From contig JAADIZ010000192.1 in NCBI GenBank assembly GCA_013151055.1, positions 1 through 36,119 of the forward strand: a DNA stretch of 36,119 nucleotides, in the 5' to 3' direction. Shown here one piece after another: positions 2,030 through 20,195 of the stretch. The DNA is from Campylobacterota bacterium (lineage in GTDB: Bacteria; Campylobacterota; Campylobacteria; Campylobacterales; Sulfurospirillaceae). The position numbers were made by a program, and so were the translations under genes. Position 1 is the first letter of the stretch; the number at the start of each line of letters is the position of its first letter. Under the pieces are notes generated by a model, which searched no databases, was not told where the DNA came from, and saw only the letters and a list, made by a program, of their open reading frames with translations.

Positions 2030-2660
2030 TTTTTTTGATTTATTGCTTCAAGATACGATAACTATGATGGCGATAATGGACCCTTTGGGTGTTAGTGCCA
2101 TCATGATCTCTTTTTTGAGTGATGGAACAACAAAGAAAGATGTTTCTAAGATAGCACTAAAAACAACAACAACGATAATAATAGCTTTTTTTGTGGTTCT
2201 TGTAAGCGGAAACTTTTTACTAAAACTTTTTGGCATAGAGATAGACTCTTTAAAAGTTATGGGTGGAATTATTTTGCTTTTGATGGCTATAAAAATGGTA
2301 AATGGTATGGCAGAATCAAAAAATCAAACCAAACAAGAGAGGATGGAGGCAGAAAATCACGAAGAATTTTCTATAATTCCTCTTGCTATTCCTATAATCT
2401 TTGGCCCAGGAATTTTCGCTACTATCGTGATACTAAGAAATCAGAGCGAAGAATTTTCTTCTTTGATAGCTTTTATCGGAGCTTATCTTATAGTTGCTTT
2501 TAGTATCTATCTAGCACTTAGAAATAGTGTGCATATACAAAAATACTTAGGAATAACAGGTTCAAAAATCATAAGTAGGCTCATGGGATTGATAGTTGGT
2601 GCCATAGCGGTTCAATTTATAGTTTCAGGATTAAGTGTTCTCATAAAAGAGTATATGTGA
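2016..2660 (+). CDS. MarC/UPF0056 family inner-membrane protein
   Basis: About 214 residues with six hydrophobic segments and the MarC-family signature near the N-terminus ([17 protein letters not shown]), plus the conserved mid-protein stretch [20 protein letters not shown]. The family comprises multi-pass inner-membrane proteins of unknown substrate; the old link to antibiotic resistance has not held up. The coding overlaps the end of ilvD by 14 nt. ATG codons exist at 2016 and 2022 and a TTG at 2013. I chose 2016 because GGA (2008-2010) lies five bases upstream. The stop overlaps the GTG start of the next gene, so the three genes are probably one transcript. Confidence 0.88.
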
Positions 2661-2863
2661 ATCAAGGTGGTTGGAGTTGTCCTCATGATACAGAAGGAGC
2701 TTGTGATATCATAAAAAAAGAGTGTGACCCAGGTGACAGGGGGTGTGTTTTATATAGAAAGGTAAAATTTTCAGATGTTAATTTACCATCAAATGAAGCT
2801 TTTGAGCAAAGAATGAAAAGAAAAATGAAAAAACTGCAAGAAGAGTTATGTAGAGATAAATAA
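2657..2863 (+). CDS. small Cys-rich conserved-looking protein, function unknown
   Basis: A 68-residue ORF starting with GTG that overlaps the marC stop (ATGTGA), implying translational coupling. The N-terminal half holds four cysteines and a histidine in the order CPH...C...C...C (SCPHDTEGACDIIKKEC, then GDRGCVLYR). This could bind a metal or form disulfides. The C-terminal half is a highly charged lysine/arginine-rich helix (FEQRMKRKMKKLQEEL). No signal peptide or membrane segment is present. I do not recognise the family. The strict overlap with marC and the ordered cysteines argue that it is a real gene. Confidence 0.72.
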   Translation: MNQGGWSCPHDTEGACDIIKKECDPGDRGCVLYRKVKFSDVNLPSNEAFEQRMKRKMKKLQEELCRDK

Positions 2864-2875
2864 TTATCTCTACAT
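2848..2875 (+). terminator. perfect 12-bp hairpin at the end of the ilvD-marC transcript
   Basis: ATGTAGAGATAA (2848-2859) pairs perfectly with TTATCTCTACAT (2864-2875) across the loop ATAA. The hairpin straddles the stop codon of the 68-aa protein (2861-2863). No clear T run follows on either strand, so it may act as an RNA-stabilising 3' hairpin or a Rho-assisted stop rather than a classical intrinsic terminator. Confidence 0.5.
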
Positions 2876-2901
2876 CAAAGGAGATTGTTTTTGAAATTTT
2901 T

Positions 2902-2949
2902 TCAAACCCAAATGAAAAATTACCTTGATAACTCTTGATTTGGGTTTGA
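2902..2949. terminator. 12-bp inverted repeat between convergent genes
   Basis: TCAAACCCAAAT (2902-2913) and ATTTGGGTTTGA (2938-2949) are perfect inverted copies separated by 24 nt. The repeat lies between the plus-strand small gene ending at 2863 and the minus-strand microprotein ending at 2967. That is the position of a bidirectional terminator, but neither side has a clean T tract. Confidence 0.45.
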
Positions 2950-2966
2950 TTTACGCAATATACATA

Positions 2967-3062
2967 CTACGCAATAACTGCATAAGCAAACGCAGCAAGG
3001 CTGATTACAGCAACAAAATCGAAAATACCTAATACTTGAAGAGGGTTTAATTTTGAGAACAT
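2967..3062 (-). CDS. 31-aa membrane microprotein
   Basis: On the minus strand ATG (3062-3060) opens a 31-codon frame ending in TAG at 2967. A near-perfect Shine-Dalgarno AAAGGAG lies at 3074-3068, five bases from the start. The peptide begins with a short polar stretch (MFSKLNPLQ) and then forms one continuous hydrophobic helix of about 20 residues (VLGIFDFVAVISLAAFAY), typical of a single-pass inner-membrane microprotein. A TATAAT lies just upstream. I know no family for it. Small subunits of membrane complexes look like this, but nothing nearby identifies a partner. Confidence 0.7.
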   Translation of the reverse strand: MFSKLNPLQVLGIFDFVAVISLAAFAYAVIA

Positions 3063-3088
3063 CTTAGCTCCTTTAAAATAATTTCGGA

Positions 3089-3094
3089 ATTATA
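3089..3094 (-). promoter_or_regulatory. -10 box of the 31-aa microprotein gene
   Basis: TATAAT reads on the minus strand at 3094-3089, 26 nt before the microprotein ATG at 3062, leaving a leader of about 20 nt that contains the ribosome binding site. This supports an independent monocistronic transcript. Confidence 0.55.
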
Positions 3095-3127
3095 TATAAA
3101 GATAGCTTAAAATATAATAAAATATAG

Positions 3128-3156
3128 CACTATATAAAAACTTATTTTATATAGTG
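3128..3156 (-). terminator. 12-bp hairpin downstream of the UPF0597 gene
   Basis: CACTATATAAAA (3128-3139) and TTTTATATAGTG (3145-3156) are perfect inverted repeats with a 5-nt loop. The hairpin begins 43 nt after the stop of the minus-strand gene at 3199. On that strand it is followed by a T-rich stretch (CTATATTTTATTATATTTTA), so an intrinsic terminator for the DUF4139/UPF0597 transcript is likely. It also lies upstream of the microprotein promoter and could be an operator instead. Confidence 0.5.
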
Positions 3157-3198
3157 TAACAAATTTACACTATTAATTTAATAAAAAATAAAGAAATG

Positions 3199-20099: not shown

Positions 20100-20195
20100 C
20101 TATTTATCGAAAAATAAAACTTTTATCATCCCAAATATCGCACCACTTACGATAACCGCTAAAAAGATAGCTTCACCGATATCTACTATACTCAT
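20100..20195 (-). CDS. 31-aa membrane microprotein coupled to rlmN
   Basis: ATG at 20195 overlaps the rlmN stop (ATGA) and is preceded by AGGAG (20205-20201) with 5-nt spacing. The 31-codon frame ends in TAG at 20100. The peptide has an acidic N-terminus (MSIVDIGEA), a single hydrophobic helix ([20 protein letters not shown]) and a charged end (DK). A strong ribosome binding site and a stop/start overlap are good evidence of translation. I recognise no family. It ends 14 nt from the convergent FAH-family gene. Confidence 0.7.

Follow-up and report, generated by a model that had tools for sequence, protein, structure and literature searches.

The 96-nt small open reading frame (sORF) at 3062..2967, on the minus strand of the window (the whole 36,119-nt stretch of Campylobacterota DNA analysed here, contig JAADIZ010000192.1), is close to certain to be a real gene, judging from its sequence and that of its relatives. 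It appears to be a genuine stand-alone gene of 31 codons plus stop, shorter than routine annotation would pick up, and is predicted to encode a small single-pass inner-membrane protein (MFSKLNPLQVLGIFDFVAVISLAAFAYAVIA*). Our preferred reading, to which we give a probability of about 0.62, is that of an inducible single-pass membrane protein, expressed from its own box-regulated promoter, that acts on a larger partner in the membrane. The family of Sulfurospirillum, environmental bacteria noted for respiring organohalides (PMC7755780), gains with it a conserved gene for a small membrane protein. Literature searches on Sulfurospirillum and small proteins retrieved neither a description of the sORF, which some supplement may nevertheless mention, nor a small-protein census for this family.

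The open reading frame and its conservation

The first-pass annotation had placed a membrane microprotein at exactly 2967-3062 with no mention of strand; the strand is minus, and the plus-strand translation of this region is interrupted by stops. The ribosome site that it described five bases 5' of the ATG is present, as a Shine-Dalgarno AAAGGAG at 3074..3068 of the minus strand. The single hydrophobic helix was also recovered, with a single hydrophobic segment (best Kyte-Doolittle mean over 19 residues, 2.29) and a model in which residues 7-30 form one helix (pLDDT 91.8), the N-terminus bearing lysine and the C-terminus being uncharged. Searches of Pfam and NCBIfam with the protein returned nothing over the curated cut-off and a search of the PDB nothing up to E 10, while PHROGs gave only matches of E≥0.2 to proteins of the sORF family.

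Chance expectation was estimated from 100 randomized versions of the window, generated with an order-2 Markov model. The real sequence contains three ATG ORFs of 25-45 amino acids with AGGAG, versus a Markov mean of 1.34 per window, and two that are also hydrophobic, versus a mean of 0.06. These two are the sORF and a second 31-aa single-helix ORF on the minus strand (20195..20100), which overlaps the end of a gene that we take to be rlmN-like. This second ORF has homologues (E≤0.01) in 18 of the 60 genomes searched, including all 10 of g1. Here and below, g1 designates the genus of the window, g3 a genus that we read as Sulfurospirillum-like, and g2 and g5 two further genera.

Among 60 relatives, a protein search detected the sORF in its own genome and in seven of the nine other g1 genomes (E≤3e-10), with matches in three g2 genomes (E≤0.0055). 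A profile built from 11 sequences and searched against 398 genomes of the order matched 13 of them (E≤1.9e-13), all belonging to one family: 8/10 in g1, 3/3 in g2 and 2/6 in g5 (G013 and G019). The next match (E 0.013) was taken as chance, as were weak matches beyond this family (E values reaching 1 with this profile and 0.05 with the g3 profile presented below), which lie inside long frames, run across stops or are partial; the best of them (2.0e-4, g3 profile) is part of a 491-residue open frame. Matches of the first profile in g3 (E 0.02-0.05) were set aside too, being non-syntenic in the two loci read.

Protein-level conservation, on which the gene had been proposed to stand or fall, is thus observed, and the orthologues, checked for stops and frameshifts, keep the frame. 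The synonymous bias is pronounced, the pooled codons of eight g1 sequences giving a pS of 0.460 versus a pN of 0.070 (pN/pS 0.15), and dN/dS relative to the ORF of the window ranges from 0.04 to 0.12 in seven comparisons (L013-L015 were excluded from the alignments). Variable columns in the same eight sequences number 13, 3 and 21 of 30 at codon positions 1, 2 and 3, respectively, and none of 300 column shuffles reached the observed ratio. One reverse-strand register shows a similar but weaker bias (pS 0.377, pN 0.095), as expected where third positions overlap. Read as a codon pattern, this alignment shows strong purifying selection at the protein level.

On one flank of the sORF, the plus strand encodes a gene that we assume to be ilvD-like, marC (identified by its Pfam MarC match) and a 68-aa Cys-rich ORF; on the other flank, the minus strand carries a gene with Pfam SDH_alpha, presumably cyuA-like. 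marC and the Cys-rich ORF converge on the sORF, and no same-strand gene lies downstream of it. The sORF stands beside the ilvD-like gene and marC in all eight larger context loci read (g1, g2 and g5). The Cys/His-rich ORF itself (2657-2863, plus strand; WxCPH...CDIIKKECDPGDRGCVLYGK...) is conserved next to marC within the family and has no match in Pfam or NCBIfam. In the window and in g3 it precedes the sORF, whereas in g2 and g5 it lies on the far side. The ilvD-like gene of the window is split over two frames of the plus strand (394-735 and 773-2029), which would reflect a frameshift or an assembly error; in relatives it forms a single ORF of 559-561 amino acids.

Synteny and promoter extend the family further. 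Twenty-eight genomes without an sORF match were examined for marC, which was found in 25, and nine of these 25 loci harbor a 34-35-aa single-helix ORF (e.g., MKKLNVVKAGLTMTLINAVLFALGFVYLAQSQSL) with a strong ribosome site, which lies past marC and the Cys-rich ORF and is encoded on the other strand. A profile of these 34-aa ORFs matched 15 of 24 g3 genomes (E≤7.1e-9). Twelve of the 15 ORFs adjoin marC or lie no more than 7 kb from it, namely the nine syntenic loci and those of G033 (about 1 kb away), G015 and G028 (about 7 kb each), in a neighbor count that omits G335, G362 and G379. The g3 ORFs share with the sORF the upstream box described below, a TTTAAG-like element, a TATAAT or TATCATT-like -10 and one spacing. 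The window-type and g3 proteins align with a probability of 4.4% in hhalign, and 99 of 2000 shuffles were as good as their observed similarity, in a comparison of just five and four rows with the g3 rows brought to a length of 34 by trimming or padding. That the g1/g2/g5 and g3 proteins are homologous is argued from synteny and promoter, the protein sequences giving no proof of it. The Asp of position 15 is missing from g3. Clustering of conserved residues on one helix face, which packing against a partner would predict, is weak when computed with rows cut to 31 (post hoc p=0.017 for invariant residues, p=0.17 for the entropy-weighted moment). The protein seems to diverge faster between genera than its promoter does, so that promoter and synteny found orthologues missed by the protein search, and this combination may be a useful route to microproteins.

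With both profiles, the ORF is found in 28 of the 44 genomes of the family. It is absent from G018, and in G001 marC, the Cys-rich ORF and the cyuA-like gene are kept with about 60-70 nt between, the ORF and its promoter having been lost together. Since it was lost in some lineages, the ORF would not be essential; its absence from 16/44 genomes and its joint disappearance with the promoter in G001 suggest an accessory gene behaving as one unit.

Promoter and upstream box

The TATAAT noted earlier before the Shine-Dalgarno lies at 3094..3089 on the minus strand, ends 26 nt before the ATG and is followed by a conserved TCCGAAA. Upstream of it, TTTAAGCTAT (3102..3111, minus strand) resembles the -35 consensus of C. 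jejuni, TTTAAGTNTT, as quoted in PMC7755780. Further upstream, a palindromic box, GTGTAAATTTGTTACAC (3170..3154, assigned to no strand), occurs once in the genome. Its general form is GTGTA-N5-GTTAC, mostly the palindrome GTGTAA-N5-TTACAC in g1, GTGTARAAANGTTACY-like in g3, with g2 and g5 showing a looser, GAGTATTTTTGAAAC-like form. The idea that the microprotein has its own promoter gains from conservation of the -10, the TTTAAG element and the box, the last being loose in two of the four genera, and a sigma70-type promoter is predicted in front of the sORF.

The distance from the end of the box to the -10 is 59-62 nt in 27/27 orthologues with readable upstream DNA, the box being looser in five of the 27 (g2 and g5) and L010 and L011 being matched with patterns written by eye; L005 (G005), whose contig ends before the box, was left out of this count. 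The center of the box is about 80 bp upstream of the transcription start, estimated at 7 nt after the -10. A g1 pattern, GTGTAANNNNNTTACNC, matched the sORF locus in six of eight g1 genomes and had two one-sided matches elsewhere. Similarly, GTGTAANNNNGTTAC occurred once per genome, at the sORF, in the three g1 genomes tested, and gave 10 matches in 12 genomes, four of them at the ORF. Box and -10 combined were found in 21 of the 398 genomes of the order, with one match each, all beside the ORF (six g1 genomes and all 15 ORF-bearing g3 genomes), versus 2/398 for the reversed control. One-mismatch matches to the box elsewhere in 12 genomes were about as frequent as those of the reversed control, and hence no regulon was built. 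The conserved GTGTA-N5-GTTAC box, which is new in this analysis, looks like the putative site of a dedicated regulator, and regulation of the sORF through it is likely. Combined with the -10, it marks a single locus in each genome and offers a direct handle on both the signal and the regulator.

Between box and promoter, the window also contains a perfect 12-nt inverted repeat (3128-3156) that by eye is confined to its own genome, relatives showing no counterpart.

The 3' hairpins and the possible functions

The sORF occupies a 335-nt interval, confirmed as the distance between the flanking ORFs (2864-3198). This interval had been depicted as filled with hairpins, which holds for the 3' side, where two hairpins are kept in the genus, and fails for the 100 nt upstream, which are conserved promoter. 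Hairpin 1 (2902..2949, minus strand) lies in the 3' UTR and hairpin 2 (2848..2875, minus strand) marks the 3' border of the unit; both show compensatory changes in g1, 12 of their 33 predicted pairs being changed on both sides and kept. The linker between them (2875..2895, no strand) reads TCAAAGGAGATTGTTTTTGAA on the plus strand, and the minus-strand RNA contains CUCCUUU. These 21 nt are identical in 7 of 10 g1 genomes, although hairpin bases changed, and G009 keeps 12 nt of them (alignment A4, with eight g1 sequences). One of these seven genomes, G007, has a second copy with one mismatch beside a marC without ORF (L100), which suggests that the linker may belong to marC; apart from this copy, the linker was found at the sORF locus only. 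In hairpin 1, pairing is restricted to the minus-strand RNA for 20 G-U cells and to the plus-strand RNA for four cells, and the plus-strand fold of the same alignment favors the plus strand, so that no strand is claimed for hairpin function. Reading the plus-strand linker as coding (AAAGGAG, TTG) was rejected, as the frame is not kept by eye, and the one Rfam match, to a microRNA family and far below the gathering score, was dismissed.

By analogy with known systems such as CioY (PMC11955535), the sORF product would most likely modulate the activity of some larger protein of the membrane. A regulator devoted to this gene, or to a few targets, would bind the box and, depending on conditions, switch the sORF on or off. 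Once made, the product would insert as a single helix with its N-terminus in, as suggested by the terminal charges, and may pack against its larger partner, a membrane protein or complex, which it would tune or stabilize. Another reading attaches a second function to the RNA. A transcript of about 235 nt would encode the peptide and base-pair through the CUCCUUU of the linker, thereby blocking ribosome sites on other mRNAs or the AAAGGAG of the transcript itself, to which CUCCUUU is complementary. The covarying hairpins that flank an identical linker in seven genomes, and the excess of G-U cells in favor of the minus-strand RNA, are what such an RNA could look like, but there is some circularity in the strand bias, the hairpins and linker occur in g1 only (g3 loci having, by eye, a plainer hairpin region), the linker did not follow in G003 and G009, where the ribosome site is AAGGAT, and the copy in G007 has no ORF beside it. 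We consider this dual role unlikely, and quite unlikely the variant in which a private single-target regulator drives a short RNA encoding the microprotein and carrying, in g1, the CUCCUUU linker as a silencer of mRNAs or of its own ribosome site. SgrS/SgrT is a dual-function RNA with which the predicted short transcript shares a small ORF and a conserved structured segment. The same likeness extends to VcdRP, which encodes the 29-aa VcdP (PMC8672173); unlike in both, the structured segment here is limited to one genus and is known from sequence.

Length, hydrophobicity, own promoter and structured RNA also recall a hydrophobic type I toxin with its antisense RNA, such as AapA/IsoA of Helicobacter pylori, where AapA1 is a 30-aa hydrophobic inner-membrane peptide whose translation is blocked by folding of the full-length mRNA (PMC8322730). 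The sORF likewise would yield a small hydrophobic peptide, with a predicted membrane helix, from a structured mRNA. Unlike AapA1, it is present as a single copy at a fixed chromosomal place across several genera, with a regulator-like box and purifying selection (dN/dS about 0.1); no antisense unit was recognized in a consensus scan, and the promoter-like match on the plus strand at 3053-3082 is directed away from the ORF. A toxin is therefore very unlikely. CydX is a single helix, and size and helix of the sORF product would fit a small subunit of a terminal oxidase, either cytochrome bd/Cio (CydX, CioY) or another such as cbb3. CydX, with 37 amino acids, is a small membrane protein of E. coli cytochrome bd (PMC4325964), and CioY, known in the same phylum and similar to the sORF product in its length of about 31-34 amino acids and its mostly single membrane helix, is a small oxidase subunit encoded downstream of cydAB/cioAB that keeps Trp, Pro and Tyr (PMC11955535). 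In contrast to CioY, the sORF family has no Trp in any of 23 aligned rows. The sORF is not located beside cydAB/cioAB, nor in a shared operon as for CydX, its neighbors being marC and the ilvD-like and cyuA-like genes. It does not track cydA either, which is absent from 14 of 28 ORF-bearing genomes and present in 11 of 16 ORF-less ones (Fisher p 0.34, n=44), and was not found in the window's own genome (93% complete). The different neighbors, the missing Trp and the lack of association with cydA all argue against CydX or CioY, and an oxidase subunit appears highly improbable. Finally, a short ORF followed by hairpins could be a leader peptide or a chance ORF in an intergenic RNA. A leader requires a downstream gene, and here marC and the Cys-rich ORF converge on the sORF from the other strand; chance is at odds with selection on the amino acids and with a box and -10 pattern unique to the ORF. 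Both options are scarcely credible.

Candidate regulators and related sites

For the regulated membrane protein that we favor, a parallel exists in Sulfurospirillum, where, according to PMC7755780, one promoter responds to an OmpR-family regulator whose site, of another motif, lies 85 bp ahead of the start, a distance comparable to that of the sORF box. PceP of Sulfurospirillum was rejected as a candidate, as the motif given for it, CTATW-N17-CTATW, is unlike the box. PhosR/PhoB was set aside as well, the box not matching what we take to be the pho box sequence. Upstream regions of pstS (11 loci in eight genomes) were scanned with scripted repeat patterns, the box included, none of which matched. 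By eye, seven of these regions (L173-L178 and L181) contain direct GTAAC/GTTAC-type (GTWAY) repeats, distinct from the inverted box, which are perhaps a family-specific pho box. In g3, GTGTAAAAATGTAACT...ATGTTACAC is found near position 1500 of L143 and L150, upstream of a gene for a protein with a twin-arginine signal (named by eye), and these related half-sites may possibly be bound by the same regulator as the sORF box. A further site, in L145, lies upstream of a gene that is porin-like by eye.
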